A stretch of 64,000 nt of DNA from an uncultured Pelagibacteraceae bacterium (GTDB taxonomy: Bacteria > Pseudomonadota > Alphaproteobacteria > Pelagibacterales > Pelagibacteraceae): positions 1 to 64,000 of the forward strand of contig CACMVB010000002.1 of the NCBI GenBank assembly GCA_902617025.1, given 5' to 3'. The translations under genes were made by a program, and so were the position numbers. The notes below the pieces were generated by a model that saw only the letters and a list, made by a program, of their open reading frames with translations, had not been told where the DNA came from and made no database searches. Numbering within the stretch: the first letter of the stretch is position 1; each line of letters opens with the position of its first letter. Shown here one piece after another: positions 9,097-58,243 of the stretch.

Positions 9097-11853
9097 TTAA
9101 TAACCTTTTATCATTTTTTTGCAAAAATTATTTAAGCCAGTTGCGTTAGATCCTTTAATCATTAAATAATCATTATTAGATATAATATTACTTAAAGTAA
9201 AATCTATATCTTCATCCTGTTGAAAAATATTGCCACGTTTATGTTTGTGTATTTTTTTAAAGGTATCTAACGTTTTGTCGCCTTTAACAAATACTTTATC
9301 TATATCTGAATTGTTAATAACTCTTGATAGTCCTTCATGTAAAATTTTAGATTTTTTTCCTAACTCGAGCATATCTCCAAGTATTAGATATTTTTTAAAT
9401 TTTTCTTTTTTAATAGATTTGAAATTTTTAATTGCAGTTTTTACTGAAAGAGGATTAGCATTATAACTCTCATCGACTAATTTAAATTTTTTACTATACC
9501 TAGAAATAATATGAATTTTCCCTCTCCCTTCAATTGGGTCAACTTTTTTAAAACAATTAGATAATTTCTTTAAATCTAGATTTAATTCTTGAATTAGAGT
9601 TAACGATGCAAGAATATTGTAAATATTAATATTTTTGGTTTTTAGTCTCACATTACTATTTTTTACTTTAATATTTAAGAAATTATGACCTTTTCTTTTT
9701 AAAACTGAGGTAGGATAAACATCTGATTTTTTATTCAAACCAAAAGAAAGAATTTTTAAATTTTTAAATTTTGCTTTTTTTTCTAGAAATCTAAAATATT
9801 TATCATCTCGATTTAAAATTATTGTTCCATTTTTTTCAATATTTTCAATTATTTCTCCTTTTGCTTTAGCAATACCTCTCAAATTTTTAAAGTTTTCAAT
9901 ATGTGCCTCACCTATATTAGTAATAATAGCTATATGAGGCCTGATAAGTTTTGATAATTTATTTATCTCTCCACTTTTACTCATGCCTACTTCAAAAATA
10001 CCATATTTATGATCAACTCTTAACTGTGATAAACTTAATGGAACTCCTAAATAATTATTGTAAGATTTAGGGGAACTTAATGTATCTCCAAAATTTTGTA
10101 ATAATACTCTTAATAAACTTTTTAAAGAAGTTTTTCCTGCGCTACCTGTAATTGCTATTATTTTAGAATTAGTTCTACTCCTTTTCTTATAAGCAAACTT
10201 CTGTAAAAAATTTATTTCATTATCAACTTTAATAATCTTTTTGTTGTACTTTTTGTTTTTTCTGGAAGAAATTATAAATTTCGCGCCTTTTTTTAATGCA
10301 TGAGCCACATATTTATTACCATCATTTTTTTTACCTTTAATTGTGATAAATAAATCATTTTTTTTTACTAATCGGGAGTCTATAGAAAATCCATTAAATT
10401 TTTTAATATCTATATCTTTTTTAATTTCCGCAAGAATTTTTTTATTTTGAACTAAATTTGGATCCTTGTAAAAAAATTTTTTTAATTTTATATTTTTGAT
10501 TATTTTTTTATCTGAAATAAAAATTGTTTTATTTTTATAAATTTGCTCCTCTTCATGACCTTTTCCAGCTACTAAAATTATATCATTAGGGTCTGACTTA
10601 AGTATTGCTTCTTTTATCGCTTTTGCTCTATTACCTACGTTGAAGCAATTATTGCTTTTAATTTTGCCAATTATCTCTTTTCTAATCTTATTTGGATTTT
10701 CACTTCTTGGATTATCATCAGTAACAAAAAAATTTTTACAATACTTTTGTGCTATTTGCCCCATTAAAGGCCTTTTTTCATAATCTCGATCACCTCCACA
10801 CCCAAATACCAGCGAAATATTTTTACTATTATCTTTTAATAAAGCTTTTAATGATTTTTCTAAAGCATCAGGTGTGTGTGCAAAATCAACGTAAATTTTT
10901 CTTTTGCCTGGTAAAATTTTTACTAACTCTAATCTACCATTTACATTTTTAATCTTATTTAAGGTTCTAAAAATTTTTCGCTCTGTCAGTTTACATAATT
11001 TTGCAGCTAAAATTGCCATAGATAAATTTTTAATTTGAAATTCATTTAACTTAAGATTTCTTTTTTTTTTAATTTTTTCTTGGGTTGAGCTTATGTCAAT
11101 TAAACGTAGCTTCTTTTTTTTACAAATATTTTTTAACAAGGAATATTCTTTGAGTGATTTATCTGTTATAACTGTTTTGTTTTTAGACAATATGCTATTG
11201 AAGAGAAAAAGCTTTGCTTTTAAATATGAAAACATTGATTTATGATAATCTAAATGATCTTGACTAAAATTTGTAAAAATACCGGCTTTTATATTTAAAT
11301 TATTTATTCTTTTTTGATGAAGTCCATGACTAGACGCCTCAATGATTACGTTGTTAATTTTTTTTTTTTTTATTTTCTCTAGATTTTTATGCAACGAAAT
11401 AATATCTGGTGAAGTCAGATCAGATTTAATAATTTTTCCTTTTAATTTTATGCCTAATGTTCCAATAGACGCTACAGGAATATTATTCAAATTAAGAATT
11501 TGGTAAAATAGATCAGCAACAGAGGTTTTTCCATTCGTGCCGGTCACTGCAATTATATTATTTGGCTTTAATTTATAAAAAGATGATGTTATTTCACTTA
11601 ATAAGCGCTTTATATTAGAAGTTTTAATTACTAAAATTTTATTATTTATATATTTACATTTTTTTGAGCAAATAACAACTTCGGCACCTTTTGTAACAGC
11701 TTCTTTTATAAACTTTTCACCATTGGATTTATAACCTCTAATGGCAAAAAAAATAAATCCTTTTGAGATATTTTTGCTATTTATTGAAAGGCCTTTAATC
11801 CTCAATTTTTTTTTTTTCTCAGGTAGATTTTTAATTAGTTTTTTCAGTAACAT
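9097..11853 (-). CDS. murE-murF: MurE-MurF fusion (UDP-MurNAc-tripeptide ligase / D-Ala-D-Ala adding enzyme)
   Basis: A single uninterrupted 918-residue frame joins two consecutive Mur ligases. Residues 1 to about 460 are MurE: IAVTGTNGKTSVADLF (P-loop), TSPDIISLHKNL, IIEASSHGLHQKRI, FTNFSQDHLDYH, VDFAHTPDALEK, CGGDRDYEKRPLMG and DDNPRSENP. The DNPR motif predicts meso-diaminopimelate as the added amino acid. From about 475 onward is MurF: FSIDSRLVKKNDLF, IAITGSAGKTSLKSLL (second P-loop), YNNYLGVPLSLS, GMSKSGEI, NIGEAHIENF, VDESYNANPLSVK and LGDMLELG. Both active sites look intact. In most bacteria these are separate adjacent genes. The linker between them is short (roughly 10-15 residues). 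Confidence 0.95.
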   Translation of the reverse strand: MLLKKLIKNLPEKKKKLRIKGLSINSKNISKGFIFFAIRGYKSNGEKFIKEAVTKGAEVVICSKKCKYINNKILVIKTSNIKRLLSEITSSFYKLKPNNIIAVTGTNGKTSVADLFYQILNLNNIPVASIGTLGIKLKGKIIKSDLTSPDIISLHKNLEKIKKKKINNVIIEASSHGLHQKRINNLNIKAGIFTNFSQDHLDYHKSMFSYLKAKLFLFNSILSKNKTVITDKSLKEYSLLKNICKKKKLRLIDISSTQEKIKKKRNLKLNEFQIKNLSMAILAAKLCKLTERKIFRTLNKIKNVNGRLELVKILPGKRKIYVDFAHTPDALEKSLKALLKDNSKNISLVFGCGGDRDYEKRPLMGQIAQKYCKNFFVTDDNPRSENPNKIRKEIIGKIKSNNCFNVGNRAKAIKEAILKSDPNDIILVAGKGHEEEQIYKNKTIFISDKKIIKNIKLKKFFYKDPNLVQNKKILAEIKKDIDIKKFNGFSIDSRLVKKNDLFITIKGKKNDGNKYVAHALKKGAKFIISSRKNKKYNKKIIKVDNEINFLQKFAYKKRSRTNSKIIAITGSAGKTSLKSLLRVLLQNFGDTLSSPKSYNNYLGVPLSLSQLRVDHKYGIFEVGMSKSGEINKLSKLIRPHIAIITNIGEAHIENFKNLRGIAKAKGEIIENIEKNGTIILNRDDKYFRFLEKKAKFKNLKILSFGLNKKSDVYPTSVLKRKGHNFLNIKVKNSNVRLKTKNINIYNILASLTLIQELNLDLKKLSNCFKKVDPIEGRGKIHIISRYSKKFKLVDESYNANPLSVKTAIKNFKSIKKEKFKKYLILGDMLELGKKSKILHEGLSRVINNSDIDKVFVKGDKTLDTFKKIHKHKRGNIFQQDEDIDFTLSNIISNNDYLMIKGSNATGLNNFCKKMIKGY

Positions 11854-13561: not shown

Positions 13562-13878
13562 TCCTGGCTTACGTATTTATTTTGAAGATTATTAAAATTC
13601 GAGATGCTCAGAAAAATTTTTGAGTATTCCATTGGTAGATATTGCTCAATATCCAAATTTTTAATTCTTTTTTCTATCATTGATGGTGAAGTTAAGTAAA
13701 AATAATCAAGTTGGGACTCATTGAAATCTTTTTCTTGAAAATTTATTTTTTTATTCAATTGATCTATATTTTTTTCAATTTCTCTAGTTTCATTTTTAAT
13801 TACTGATGTTCCAAATAAAAGAGATGAAAAAATAAGTAGGGAAATAAATATTTTAATTTTAAACATAAATAGCCTCAA
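13558..13878 (-). CDS. ftsL: FtsL-like cell division protein
   Basis: A 106-residue protein between rsmH and ftsI, the canonical ftsL slot. It has one N-terminal membrane segment (KIFISLLIFSSLLFG), then a heptad-like helix (IKNETREIEKNIDQLNKKINFQEKDF) typical of the FtsL coiled coil that pairs with FtsB, and a short C-terminal part with the alphaproteobacterial-type 'SPSMIEKRI' segment. Two starts are possible, Met1 (20 nt overlap with rsmH) or Met5 at 13866 (8 nt overlap); MFKIKIF is the tidier one. Sequence similarity in FtsL is weak, so the call relies on position and architecture. Confidence 0.82.
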   Translation of the reverse strand: MRLFMFKIKIFISLLIFSSLLFGTSVIKNETREIEKNIDQLNKKINFQEKDFNESQLDYFYLTSPSMIEKRIKNLDIEQYLPMEYSKIFLSISNFNNLQNKYVSQD

Positions 13879-14869
13879 TATCTAAATATTTTTTAAACTT
13901 TTGTATGAAGCTTTTAGGATAAAAAAAATCTTTTTTATTTCTTATTGCAAATCTCAGTTTTGCAGAACGTGAAGGATTATTAATATTAATTTCTTTTTGT
14001 GAGGGTTTTAAGGCTTTATTATTATAATTTTCAAATAAAATAGAATTATCATTTACTTCCTCCGGAAAGTACCTTGACGGCTTTGATTTATTTTTTGAAA
14101 AATTACTAAAAAAATATTTTACTATCTTATCTTCTATTGAATGAAAGCTCACAATAATTATCTTTCCTCCAGGCTTTAAAAGCTTTGAAGCTTTAATAAT
14201 TCCATTTATAAGTTCTGTTATTTCTTTATTTACGTATATTCTTAACGCCTGAAAAGTCTTAGTGCTTGGATTTATTTTTGTGTAATAATTTTTTTTTTTA
14301 CTTTTCTCAATAATTTCTACTAGTTCATCTACTCTAGTAATTTTTTTTTGCGTTCTAGCTTTAACTATATTCCTCGCAATTTTTTTTGCATCTTTTTCTT
14401 CTCCTAAAACTTTAATTATTAAAGTTAACTGGTTTTCAGATAAATTATTAATAGCGTGTTGAGCGGAATTATCAGAAAGGCCCATAGTCATATCTAATTT
14501 TTCTTTAGACTTAAATGAAAATCCTCTTTTAAAATCTTGAAGTTGTATAGAAGAAAGGCCCAAATCAATTAAAATAACGTCTACATTATCTTTACAAACT
14601 TTTTCTAACTGACTGAATTTTAAATGATAAAATTTAAATCTATTTTTAAAATTTTTTTCCATCTTTCTGGCGATTGAAATTACGGCATCATCTCTGTCGA
14701 TACCTATCACTTTTGTTTTTGGAAAATCTAATAATGCTTTTGTATAGTTTCCACCTCCAAAGGTACAATCAATAAATACACCGCCTTTTTTTGGATTTGA
14801 AATTTCGATAATTTCACTCAACATCACTGGAAAATGGGTGAATTCCAGTGATGATATTTGAGTAGTCAT
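13859..14869 (-). CDS. rsmH: 16S rRNA (cytosine(1402)-N(4))-methyltransferase
   Basis: SAM-dependent methyltransferase (formerly MraW) modifying C1402 in the ribosomal P site. Motifs: HFPVMLSEIIEI, GVFIDCTFGGGNYTKALL (SAM motif I, about 31), GIDRDDAV, DVILIDLGLSSIQLQDFKRGFSF (about 103), and IIVSFHSIEDKIVKYFF near residue 240. Length 336 is slightly longer than usual (about 310), through a lysine-rich C-terminus. Here it lies after ftsZ rather than directly after mraZ, with an 18 nt gap from the ftsZ stop. Confidence 0.97.
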   Translation of the reverse strand: MTTQISSLEFTHFPVMLSEIIEISNPKKGGVFIDCTFGGGNYTKALLDFPKTKVIGIDRDDAVISIARKMEKNFKNRFKFYHLKFSQLEKVCKDNVDVILIDLGLSSIQLQDFKRGFSFKSKEKLDMTMGLSDNSAQHAINNLSENQLTLIIKVLGEEKDAKKIARNIVKARTQKKITRVDELVEIIEKSKKKNYYTKINPSTKTFQALRIYVNKEITELINGIIKASKLLKPGGKIIIVSFHSIEDKIVKYFFSNFSKNKSKPSRYFPEEVNDNSILFENYNNKALKPSQKEININNPSRSAKLRFAIRNKKDFFYPKSFIQKFKKYLDIEAIYV

Positions 14870-14887: not shown

Positions 14888-16402
14888 TTAAAACTTTTGT
14901 CTTCTTAAAAAAGCAGGTATTTCAAAATCCTCGTCCTCATCATTATCTTGGTCAAACAATTCGGTAGAGTTAGTGTCAGTTATATTGTCTTTACTTTCGA
15001 GGTTCTCTTGTGAATGATCTTCTGCAAACAGTTTTGGTGTATTCTCCTCTTGCGTATTTTCTTTAAAATAATCCCCATATATTTTATTGGTATTCTCGAG
15101 TTTCATTTCAGGATTGTTTTCCATATAGGATGCACTTTCAATTGATACACCGGAAGGAATTTCATTTGTTAAACTTTGGTTTTTCAGTGACTCTTCTTGG
15201 GCAATTTTGATTTCTTCTTTACTTTCAAAACTATCTATAAGAGCGTTTTGCTCGTCGCTATTTTTTATTTCTAAACTTTCATCTAGTTTTAACGCTGTGG
15301 CACCGTCAATTGAGCTTGTGATATTATTATCAATGCTTTTAGCATTAAACAAAGTGTCTCCTTGACTAGGTCCACTATTAAAAAGCGAACTTTTACTGTT
15401 TGATGTGTTTACTAAGTTTAGATAAGGCTTTGAACCTGAGCCGTGAAGTGCAGTAGCTACTATAGAGACTCTTATCTTACCATTCATATTTTCATCTTTA
15501 ATTGCTCCAAAAATCAATTCTGCCTCTGGATCAACTTCTGCTCTAATTTTATTAACTGCCGCATCAACTTCGAAAAGTTTTATATCGCTTCCACCAGTAA
15601 TGTTCACTAGTAAACCTTTAGCTCCTTGTAATGTATATTCATCAATTAAAGGATTATTTAAAGCTAATTCAGTTGCAGACATAGCTCGATTTTCTCCATC
15701 AGCTTCGCCAGTTCCCATCATAGCTTTACCGCTTGAACTCATTACAGTCTCGACATCTGCAAAATCTAAATTTATCATTCCAGGTCTAACCATTAGGTCT
15801 GTAATACTTTGCACACCATGCTTTAAAACATCATTTGACAAATTAAAAGACTCTTCGAAACCAGTTGCCTCATTAGCAATTTTAAATAAATTTTGATTTG
15901 GCACCACAATCGTTGTGTCTAAATATTTTTTAAGCTCTTCGAGCCCTGCTACTGCTCTTCGCATTCGTTTAGGTCCCTCATAAGAAAAAGGTAGCGTGGT
16001 TACACCTACAGTGAGAATATTCATTTCTCTAGCAGCTCTAGCAATTACATGAGATGCTCCAGTACCTGTCCCACCTCCCATGCCCGAAGCAATAAAAACC
16101 ATATTGCTTCCTTGAATATAGTTTACTATTTCATTAATTGACTCATCAGCAGCAGCCTGACCAATATCATGTTTAGCTCCAGCACCTAATCCTTTAGTTA
16201 AATTCATTCCTATTTGTATTTTAGCATCTGCCTTGCTCATCTTTAAATCTTGTGCATCAGTGTTTACTGCAACGAATTCCACTCCTTGCATGCCAGCTTC
16301 TATCATCGCATTAATTGCGTTACCGCCTGCTCCGCCAACACCAATTACTAATATTCTTGGTTTCAATTCTCTCAGTTCGCCACCTCCAACATTTATACTC
16401 AT
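14888..16402 (-). CDS. ftsZ: Cell division GTPase FtsZ
   Basis: Tubulin-like GTPase that forms the Z ring. Visible: IGVGGAGGNAINAM at the N-terminus, the tubulin signature SGMGGGTGTGASHVIA (about 107), NLDFADVETVM in the T7 synergy loop, and GSDIKLFEVD. A long, acidic, low-complexity linker (about residues 335-490) ends in the conserved C-terminal peptide DEDFEIPAFLRRQKF that binds FtsA and other partners. The residues after GGGTGTG are ASH, where AAP is usual. The 504-residue length fits alphaproteobacterial FtsZ. Its position between mraZ and rsmH is abnormal, since ftsZ normally ends the cluster after ftsA. Confidence 0.98.
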   Translation of the reverse strand: MSINVGGGELRELKPRILVIGVGGAGGNAINAMIEAGMQGVEFVAVNTDAQDLKMSKADAKIQIGMNLTKGLGAGAKHDIGQAAADESINEIVNYIQGSNMVFIASGMGGGTGTGASHVIARAAREMNILTVGVTTLPFSYEGPKRMRRAVAGLEELKKYLDTTIVVPNQNLFKIANEATGFEESFNLSNDVLKHGVQSITDLMVRPGMINLDFADVETVMSSSGKAMMGTGEADGENRAMSATELALNNPLIDEYTLQGAKGLLVNITGGSDIKLFEVDAAVNKIRAEVDPEAELIFGAIKDENMNGKIRVSIVATALHGSGSKPYLNLVNTSNSKSSLFNSGPSQGDTLFNAKSIDNNITSSIDGATALKLDESLEIKNSDEQNALIDSFESKEEIKIAQEESLKNQSLTNEIPSGVSIESASYMENNPEMKLENTNKIYGDYFKENTQEENTPKLFAEDHSQENLESKDNITDTNSTELFDQDNDEDEDFEIPAFLRRQKF

Positions 16403-16416
16403 GACATCTCCCCTTT

Positions 16417-16863
16417 CTATTTATTTTCCCACTTTAAATTAGACCTGTTTTGAAAAGCTTTTTTTCTAGCAAATGATTTAAATTTTTCAAAATTTTTAGG
16501 TTCCCATATTTGGAATGTTTTACCGAGCCCAACAAATAAAATGTTATTTTTAATTTTAGCATGACCAAGTAATTTTTCAGATATCGAAACTCTTCCTTCG
16601 GTATCAAATTGCAAACTTTCACTTTCAGATAAAACCGAAGTAGCAAAATAATCTCTTTTTTCTTCAAAAGGATTTAAAGAGTCGATTGTATTAGATAATC
16701 TTTCAATCCTCTCTTGCGAACAAGCCTCTAGCGCAGAATGATTAAAAGAAGGATAACTAATAAATCCATTGTAACCTAATGAGTTTAAATAAGATCTAAA
16801 AGTTGCTGGCACAGAAACCCGACCTTTCTTGTCTATTTTGTTTTCGAAATTCGATAAAAACAT
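16417..16863 (-). CDS. mraZ: Transcriptional regulator MraZ
   Basis: First gene of the dcw cluster and usually its autorepressor. It carries two SpoVT/AbrB-type swapped-hairpin repeats: ENKIDKKGRVSVPATFRSYL near the start and LQFDTEGRVSISEKLLGHA near residue 90. Family members form a ring that binds tandem TGGGN repeats. Three such repeats lie 52-76 nt upstream of the ATG (see the promoter entry). Length 148 is normal. It is followed 14 nt later by ftsZ. Confidence 0.95.
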   Translation of the reverse strand: MFLSNFENKIDKKGRVSVPATFRSYLNSLGYNGFISYPSFNHSALEACSQERIERLSNTIDSLNPFEEKRDYFATSVLSESESLQFDTEGRVSISEKLLGHAKIKNNILFVGLGKTFQIWEPKNFEKFKSFARKKAFQNRSNLKWENK

Positions 16864-16914
16864 TAGCTTTCAAAAATCCTTTTATTATAAAAATTTTCAA
16901 ATCACCCTCCATAA

Positions 16915-16956
16915 TGGGAATATATGGGATATTATGGGTTTTTAATGAATAGTCAA
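16915..16956 (-). promoter_or_regulatory. mraZ/dcw promoter with three TGGGN repeats (candidate MraZ operator)
   Basis: On the minus strand a sigma-70-like promoter reads TTGACT (16951-16956), a 16 nt spacer, then TAATAT (16929-16934), about 65 nt upstream of the mraZ ATG. On the plus strand three pentamers, TGGGA (16915), TGGGA (16925) and TGGGT (16935), repeat with exactly 10 bp periodicity and 5 nt spacers, bracketing the -10 element. MraZ from E. coli is reported to bind TGGGN direct repeats with 5 nt spacers, so autoregulation is the obvious inference. The relative strand of the repeats was not compared with known cases. Confidence 0.75.
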
Positions 16957-17013
16957 TGAATTTGTATTTTTAGTTTAAGTACAAAAGTAGAACAATTATA
17001 TGGTGATTTTAAA

Positions 17014-17368
17014 GCCAGATAATCTGTAAGCCGGGTTCTGTCATTGAAGATTTCATTTCTCTAGGCCTAAAATTGCTTTTAAGCTCAAGCGGTTAACCCA
17101 GAAGACTAACTAAAGACTGTTTTTAGCAAAAAATGCAGTGTCTTCTCTATTTAACCTTGCTCCCAGTGGGGTTTGCCCTGCGTTTTTTGTTACCAAAAAA
17201 CCGGTAAGCTCTTACCTTACCTTTTCACCCTTGCCTTGATTAGGCGGTTTATTTTCTGTGGCACTATCCCTGAGGTCACCCTCGCCAGCCGTTAACTGGC
17301 ACTGTGTCCTTATGGAGCCCGGACTTTCCTCTATTAGAAAACTAATAGCGATAATCCAATTATCTGGC
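17014..17368 (-). ncRNA. rnpB: RNase P RNA (M1 RNA)
   Basis: Catalytic RNA that matures tRNA 5' ends. Reading the minus strand, the 5' terminus GCCAGATAATTGGATTATC pairs with the 3' end GATTATCTGGC. Near the start is the universal AGAGGAAAGTCCGGGCTCC (P4/J3-4), followed by AGGGTGAC, CAGGGCAAACCCC, and near the 3' end GAACCCGGCTTACAGAT. These are bacterial type A landmarks. The ends are taken from the terminal helix and are good to a few bases. It lies upstream of mraZ and downstream of ampD on the same strand. Confidence 0.95.
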
Positions 17369-57169: not shown

Positions 57170-58243
57170 ATGTTCAAATTTTGTAACCAAATTCTTAATG
57201 GTGACTGCTTAGAGGAATTAAAAAAAATTCCTGATAAAACCTTTGATTTAGTTTTTGCTGATCCACCCTATAACATGCAGATTGGTGAAAAATTAACTCG
57301 TCCAGACTCCTCAAAAGTAAATGGCGTTAACGATAAATGGGATCAATTTAATAGTTTTAATCATTATGATGACTTCTGTAAATCTTGGTTAAGCGAGTGT
57401 AAAAGAATTTTAAAGGATAATGGGTCTATATGGGTAATAGGATCTTATCATAATATTTTTAGATTAGGATACCACTTACAAAATTTGGGTTACTGGTTGT
57501 TAAATGATGTTATTTGGAGAAAAAATAATCCAATGCCTAATTTTAGAGGAACAAGATTTACCAATGCTCATGAAACTTTAATCTGGGCATCAAAAAGCAA
57601 AAAATCAAAATATACTTTTAATTATCAATCTCTTAAATGTTTAAATGATGATTTACAAATGAGATCGGACTGGAAATTGCCAATATGTAATGGAAAAGAG
57701 AGGTTGAAGAGAAATGGAAAAAAAATACACTCTACTCAAAAACCTGAGGCACTTCTTCATAGAATTATTTTAGCAACTACTAATAAAGGTGATACAGTGT
57801 TTGATCCTTTTCTAGGAACTGGCACTACCGCTGTTGTATCTAAAAAATTAGGTAGAAATTATTTTGGAATTGAAAAAGATAAAAAATACTTTGTTGCAGC
57901 AAAAGAAAGAATAAATAAAACCTCTAAAATAGCTGACGATTATCTTGATACTATTGAAAACATTAAATCAAAACCCAGAATACCTTTTGGTTCACTTGTA
58001 GAATTAGGGATAATTAAACCTGGAACTTCTTTGTTTGATCCTAAGAAAAAAATTAATGCAAAAATAATGGCTGATGGAAGTTTAAAATACAAGAATACTG
58101 AAGGATCAATACACAAAATCGCTGCAAAAATAATGGGTGCCGAAAGTTATAATGGTTGGACCTATTGGCATTATGATTTAAATGGATCATCTGTATTAAT
58201 TGATAACCTAAGACAAAAATTTATTTCAGAAAAACAAAGCTAA
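57170..58243 (+). CDS. ccrM: Adenine-specific DNA methyltransferase CcrM (GANTC)
   Basis: Solitary cell-cycle DNA N6-adenine methylase of alphaproteobacteria, beta class. The catalytic DPPY is at residues 31-34 (FADPPYNMQIG), the SAM motif FDPFLGTGTTAVVSKKLGRNY at about 217-237 comes after it, and STQKPEALLHRI is typical. The C-terminal 90 residues (VELGIIKPGTSLFD...ADGSLKYKNTEGSIHKIAAKI...GAESYNGWTYWHY) are the CcrM-specific DNA-recognition extension. Length 357 matches Caulobacter CcrM (358). No cognate restriction gene is nearby. Confidence 0.96.
   Translation: MFKFCNQILNGDCLEELKKIPDKTFDLVFADPPYNMQIGEKLTRPDSSKVNGVNDKWDQFNSFNHYDDFCKSWLSECKRILKDNGSIWVIGSYHNIFRLGYHLQNLGYWLLNDVIWRKNNPMPNFRGTRFTNAHETLIWASKSKKSKYTFNYQSLKCLNDDLQMRSDWKLPICNGKERLKRNGKKIHSTQKPEALLHRIILATTNKGDTVFDPFLGTGTTAVVSKKLGRNYFGIEKDKKYFVAAKERINKTSKIADDYLDTIENIKSKPRIPFGSLVELGIIKPGTSLFDPKKKINAKIMADGSLKYKNTEGSIHKIAAKIMGAESYNGWTYWHYDLNGSSVLIDNLRQKFISEKQS

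Follow-up and report, generated by a model that had tools for sequence, protein, structure and literature searches.

A predicted MraZ operator and a conserved overlapping upstream reading frame at the head of the mraZ-ftsZ operon in Pelagibacteraceae

The mraZ-ftsZ operon of an uncultured Pelagibacteraceae bacterium is headed by three TGGG boxes that in our judgement probably form an operator for MraZ, through which the protein would repress its own operon, ftsZ included, together with an upstream open reading frame (uORF) that overlaps the start of mraZ and would place a translational layer of control on MraZ, with possible re-initiation at the GTG at codon 18 of mraZ (GTG18). SAR11 bacteria are among the most abundant cell types of the ocean and have very few transcription factors, and it is this combination that makes the control of their ftsZ a real question. 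The uORF has apparently gone undescribed until now; our literature search, which covered only a minority of subscription journals, returned no description of a uORF at mraZ.

The box array and promoter of the mraZ operon

The window, that is, the whole 64,000-nt stretch of DNA analysed, carries mraZ and its operon on the minus strand. The relevant features, in the direction of mraZ transcription, are as follows.

17011–17367, minus strand: rnpB (RNase P RNA; RF00010, 311 bits), upstream of mraZ and on the same strand
16951–16956, minus strand: –35 hexamer TTGACT of the mraZ promoter, with a 16-nt spacer to the –10
16935–16938, plus strand: putative MraZ box 1 (TGGG; CCCA on the mraZ strand), in the –35/–10 spacer
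16929–16934, minus strand: –10 hexamer TAATAT, exactly the 6-nt linker from box 1 to box 2
16925–16928, plus strand: putative MraZ box 2 (TGGG), directly after the –10
16915–16918, plus strand: putative MraZ box 3 (TGGG), 2 nt before the uORF start codon
16796–16912, minus strand: out-of-frame uORF of 38 aa, MEGDLKIFIIKGFLKANVFIEFRKQNRQERSGFCASNF, with ATG at 16912–16910 and stop TAG at 16798–16796
16417–16863, minus strand: mraZ, 148 aa, by profile match to Pfam MraZ (PF02381); its ATG is invariant in 159 loci, mostly without a Shine-Dalgarno sequence (SD)
16810–16812, minus strand: GTG codon 18 of mraZ, candidate internal or re-initiation start, beside the uORF stop
14888–16402, minus strand: ftsZ (PF00091, PF12327), second gene of the operon
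13859–14869, minus strand: mraW/rsmH, third gene of the operon, next after ftsZ

On the plus strand, TGGGA, TGGGA and TGGGT stand at 16915, 16925 and 16935 with a period of exactly 10 bp, as the original prediction had it, and the overlap that it described with a TTGACT-16-TAATAT promoter is likewise borne out, the promoter lying on the minus strand at 16956–16929. As mraZ is itself on the minus strand, the TGGG boxes are antisense to the gene, a point absent from that prediction. Read along transcription, the array is CCCATAATATCCCATATATTCCCA, or CCCA-TAATAT-CCCA-TATATT-CCCA, with the –10 filling the first linker. The three-box array matches once in the window versus not at all in 100 dinucleotide shuffles, and a pattern search finds it a single time in the 1.04-Mb genome, even with one mismatch allowed. 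A two-box match at 57420–57434, ATGGGTCTATATGGG, was considered as a second MraZ target and rejected; it lies inside a DNA methyltransferase reading frame (resembling CcrM) and is probably due to chance. Sequence features expected of an MraZ operator, namely direct TGGG repeats with a 10-bp period at a promoter directly upstream of mraZ, are found here.

Downstream of mraW/rsmH, murein-synthesis and division genes continue to about position 650. In this arrangement ftsZ is placed between mraZ and mraW and not at the far end of the dcw cluster, and it directly follows mraZ in all 119 relatives with enough flanking sequence. The suggestion that the array controls ftsZ as well is plausible for this reason, MraZ being encoded directly downstream of the boxes and ftsZ being the next gene. 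Within the cluster, positions 9097–11853 (minus strand) hold a single 918-aa reading frame which, by eye, from its sequence and position, looks like a MurE-MurF fusion. The closest mraZ relatives in the named collection come from uncultured Pelagibacteraceae single-cell genomes, and the rnpB-mraZ neighbourhood is likewise listed for Ca. Pelagibacter ubique HTCC1062 (PMC2704228). A Rhodobacter-type arrangement with a 268-nt leader and UpsM (PMC5089854) does not fit, the promoter here lying 65–90 bp from the mraZ ATG. The main text of the published SAR11 promoter maps (PMC5069720) does not mention mraZ.

Conservation and strand of the array across Proteobacteria

Comparison of mraZ upstream regions across relatives, the test that had been proposed along with the original prediction, was carried out on 199 Pelagibacteraceae mraZ loci (159 of them distinct), 18 loci from the sister family of the same order, 65 others of the class and 47 from other classes of the phylum. 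Many of these loci are close relatives, and the tree-based counts given below lessen the effect of kinship without abolishing it. None of the 159 distinct Pelagibacteraceae loci lacks the array, which consists of three exact CCCA boxes in 143 of them and of two in the other 16; in the printed examples of two-box loci a single base of the first box is changed (e.g. ACCATATATTCCCATGAAATCCCA in L162). Loci of the sister family mostly have four to five boxes with the phase unchanged. Across the class, an antisense array of at least three boxes was found in 49 of 65 loci and a sense array in none of the 65, while outside the class the orientation is the opposite, with at least three sense GTGG boxes in 34 of 47 loci and an antisense array in 0 of 47.

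Taken alone, the promoter match is not significant in this AT-rich stretch (2 found versus 2.0 expected), and its significance comes from conservation. A –35, then 15–19 nt, then a –10 in a box linker is found in 158 of 159 Pelagibacteraceae loci versus 29% in box-preserving shuffles, and in 18 of 18 sister-family loci versus 38% in shuffles of the same kind. Where a promoter was called in Pelagibacteraceae, the –35 is TTGACT in 130 of 158 loci.

Repeats of this type have been shown to bind MraZ in Burkholderia, and in E. coli MraZ acts as a repressor (PMC7761207; PMC8475190). At the E. coli Pmra/mraZ1p promoter, as here, three TGGG repeats with a 10-bp period stand directly upstream of mraZ; inspection of the E. 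coli sequence places them, as TGGGAAATTGTGGGGCAAAGTGGGA, on the sense strand and downstream of TTGACA..TAAACT. The E. coli boxes are therefore sense and downstream of the –10, whereas those of SAR11 are antisense and interleaved with it, and in the E. coli operon mraZ is followed by mraW and not, as here, by ftsZ. The Burkholderia cenocepacia PmraBc promoter carries four 7-nt repeats separated by 3-nt spacers, with MraZ binding seen by gel shift (PMC7761207). It shares the 10-bp period, but its site lies downstream of the –10 and over the transcription start, while the SAR11 array spans the –10. In Mollicutes the MraZ site consists of AAAGTG[T/G] repeats and is the single such site in the M. 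genitalium chromosome (PMC8475190); the likeness to the present case lies in a direct-repeat operator at mraZ, a reduced dcw cluster with ftsZ and a small genome, and the differences in another core word and an unrelated lineage, with no overlapping uORF reported in the passages covered.

The earlier proposal of a conserved autorepression kept in this genome holds in that the array is conserved in relatives; it does not hold as to geometry, which is reversed throughout the class rather than retained from the E. coli arrangement. Sense-strand boxes, the mark of the operator of beta-gamma type, are not what is seen, the boxes being antisense and spanning the –10 both here and across the class. 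Judged by its sequence, the array is a variant of an already known operator, in an arrangement that is class-wide and reversed relative to E. coli.

A reading frame overlapping the mraZ start

The uORF starts just behind the last box, crosses the mraZ ATG out of frame and stops 59–67 nt inside mraZ. This +1 frame is open in 158 of 159 distinct loci (to nt 59 in 38 and to nt 65 in 120), L337 being the exception. Synonymous resampling of mraZ under the family's own codon usage, taken from mraZ codons 25 onward, keeps the frame free of stops in a mean of 0.36% of cases, with a maximum of 2.75% for any locus. In 156 of 159 loci the interval from the last box to the mraZ ATG holds a start codon in this frame (ATG in 135, TTG in 21); the other two frames have an open ATG there in only 3 and 2 loci. 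Loci L003, L018 and L337 have no scored start, L018 having a TTG beyond the scan window. Scored starts precede the mraZ ATG by 7 to 88 nt, distances that are 1 mod 3 by construction of the frame scan; between genera the start moves over a range of 7 to about 90 nt. The total length of the uORF ranges from 22 to 51 aa; leader sequence and length vary widely, and three-base periodicity in the leader is weak (diversity of 0.31, 0.39 and 0.47 at codon positions 1–3).

An alternative uORF start, a TTG served by a GGAGGG SD, is found in the same frame 12 nt downstream. It was rejected as the sole start, several loci being without that TTG; the ATG GAG/GAA that follows the last box in the same frame is conserved more widely, and both starts are possible.

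Overlapping inhibitory uORFs and termination-reinitiation have precedents in eukaryotic and viral mRNAs and in the translational coupling of bacteria. The present case resembles them in its out-of-frame upstream start, its termination inside the main reading frame and a candidate start codon beside the stop; an upstream out-of-frame start, a frame open past the main start and selection on that frame, which are expected of an overlapping uORF, were found.

The signal of selection resides in the codons of mraZ. A stop in the uORF frame arises where a T-ending mraZ codon precedes AA, AG or GA. Codons 6, 8 and 11 (Tyr/Phe/His, Asn and Asp) end in C in 159, 158 and 157 of 159 loci, respectively; the same amino acids have T-ending codons in 72–87% of cases elsewhere in mraZ. 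On a tree built from mraZ itself (codons 25 onward), these three positions show 0, 1 and 2 C/T third-base changes versus 9–40 in columns beyond codon 24. The exceptions, L166 and L337, obey the rule. L166 has GAT at codon 11 with GTG following, so that no stop arises. In L337 a differing leader length brings the uORF into the mraZ frame; T-ending codons stand at positions 8 (AAT) and 11 (GAT) in that locus, which makes it a natural experiment for stop-avoidance. Gly14 is GGT only where the following codon begins with C. The stop of the uORF is in turn kept, codon 22 being TTT or TAT before AGA/AGG; it is TTC in 5 loci, all of which stop earlier, at nt 59. A general codon effect near the start was rejected as the cause of stop-avoidance in view of the sister family, in which the same frame closes at nt 20–29 and Asn8 is AAT in 18 of 18 loci. 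To the extent that codon choice can tell, stop-avoidance shows that the uORF frame is translated or otherwise selected. The sister-family loci (L033–L050) have instead an upstream TTG behind a GAGGT SD, in frame with mraZ, from which an MraZ with an N-terminal extension is predicted.

Near the uORF stop, which follows 5 or 11 nt later, Val18 of mraZ is encoded by GTG in 159 of 159 loci, with 0 third-base changes on the tree; other Val codons show 36–61 changes and are GTG in 8%. GTG is the sole Val codon able to start translation. The conservation of GTG18 is not due to stop-avoidance, and in the sister family Val18 is GTT in 15 of 18 loci. A purine-rich, SD-like stretch precedes GTG18 (–7.5 kcal/mol versus –5.6 after synonymous resampling; stronger in 123 of 159 loci), a signal that comes partly from the protein motif KKGR, as the sister family, which is without the uORF, reaches –5.3 kcal/mol. 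Codon choice at Arg15 is AGG in 70 of 159 loci and AGA in 23, compared with AGG in 19 and AGA in 139 of 159 at Arg23, and AGG at Arg15 extends the SD. Four loci have Trp14 (TGG AGG), which gives GGAGG before GTG18. Looking across individual loci, the KGR glycine is replaced by Trp or Arg (TGG AGG or AGG AGG) in L127, L132, L137, L141 and L147, creating GGAGG before GTG18. The mraZ ATG itself has little SD (–2.6 kcal/mol) yet is invariant (159/159). From these features we infer that GTG18 may serve as a start for ribosomes that have just left the uORF, with a short MraZ as the putative product. Such a start would delete the conserved first DKKGR motif of MraZ; we know of no N-terminally short MraZ product.

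Proposed control of the operon and alternative explanations

MraZ is an oligomer with repeated DNA-binding surfaces, and it would most likely bind the TGGG boxes, spaced at 10 bp, along a single face of the helix. We propose that, with the –10 hexamer enclosed by two boxes, bound MraZ would exclude sigma factor and RNA polymerase and so repress its own operon, ftsZ included. Autorepression of the mraZ-ftsZ-dcw operon, through predicted binding of MraZ, is well supported. In the published cases, E. coli and Burkholderia, the boxes occupy the opposite strand and follow the –10, so that the geometry of repression is not simply transferable from those systems. Transcription is probably not the sole level of control, given the conserved overlapping uORF between operator and mraZ. 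In Pelagibacteraceae, ribosomes captured by the uORF would bypass the SD-poor mraZ ATG, lowering the yield of full-length MraZ, and would be released too deep inside mraZ to return to that ATG. Terminating ribosomes may then re-initiate at GTG18, which would produce a short MraZ, keep the message covered by ribosomes ahead of ftsZ, or both. In its most specific form, which we put forward tentatively, two levels of control would be packed into 150 bp, an operator interleaved with the –10 and a uORF that ends beside the invariant GTG18 to give an N-terminally shortened MraZ; a single mRNA would then give rise to a repressor together with a putative antagonist of it (or keep ribosomes over the message ahead of ftsZ), translation fixing the proportion of the two.

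There are alternative explanations for the uORF. First, it could be an inhibitory decoy only, which takes up ribosomes and terminates too far past the mraZ ATG for them to restart there, with GTG18 conserved for some other reason. We regard this as a genuine possibility, if short of an even one: stop-avoidance moves termination about 60 nt past the ATG, and the leader peptide is variable and weakly periodic, but the invariance of GTG18 in 159 of 159 loci and the excess of AGG at Arg15 would go unexplained. Second, the overlapping frame could encode a functional small basic protein of about 22–51 aa, any regulation of mraZ being incidental. The weak periodicity of the leader (0.31, 0.39, 0.47) can also be read in this way, as can a basic RKQNRQER stretch and the invariant uORF Ala opposite GTG18; the proposal is nevertheless unlikely, as leader sequence and total length (22–51 aa) vary widely and MraZ determines most residues of the overlap.

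Among structural alternatives the most serious is programmed +1 frameshifting: ribosomes would initiate at the upstream codon, which has an SD, slip one base and produce an N-terminally extended MraZ, making the uORF the true mraZ start. The upstream start is nearly always in the same register (1 mod 3) and is already in frame in the sister family and in L337, and the poor SD of the mraZ ATG (–2.6 kcal/mol) would be understandable. However, the 60-nt overlap and the constancy of the ATG count against frameshifting, and we consider it quite improbable: the +1 frame stays open 59–67 nt past the ATG, beyond any shift that would spare the conserved N-terminus, and the ATG is kept in 159 of 159 loci, though needless under this scheme. 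There are, moreover, two differing stop contexts and no constant slippery codon, and the invariant GTG18 is left unexplained. An RF2-like +1 frameshift at the uORF stop was rejected, with the SD 13–19 nt from the stop versus about 6 and a product without the conserved N-terminus. As for the boxes, binding by a factor other than MraZ, or a role merely as an unusual promoter element, is very unlikely, for although we found no alphaproteobacterial MraZ binding data in the literature and the orientation differs from that in E. coli, the core, the 10-bp period and the gene all match the MraZ operators of E. coli and Burkholderia, the array is unique to mraZ in this genome, and box number varies while phase stays constant.

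Under the reading that we prefer, an MraZ operator combined with a translational layer provided by the uORF, the array would show that MraZ control, with binding predicted, has been retained in SAR11, and where it is placed. The class-wide reversal relative to beta- and gammaproteobacteria offers a ready comparison for the geometry of MraZ on DNA, given that MraZ structures are available in the PDB (1n0e, 9qlr, 9qlg and 9sx6). The overlapping uORF leaves a strong signal in the codons, one that ordinary annotation misses, and suggests that the dose of repressor is controlled at translation, in a genome regarded as having shed its regulation.
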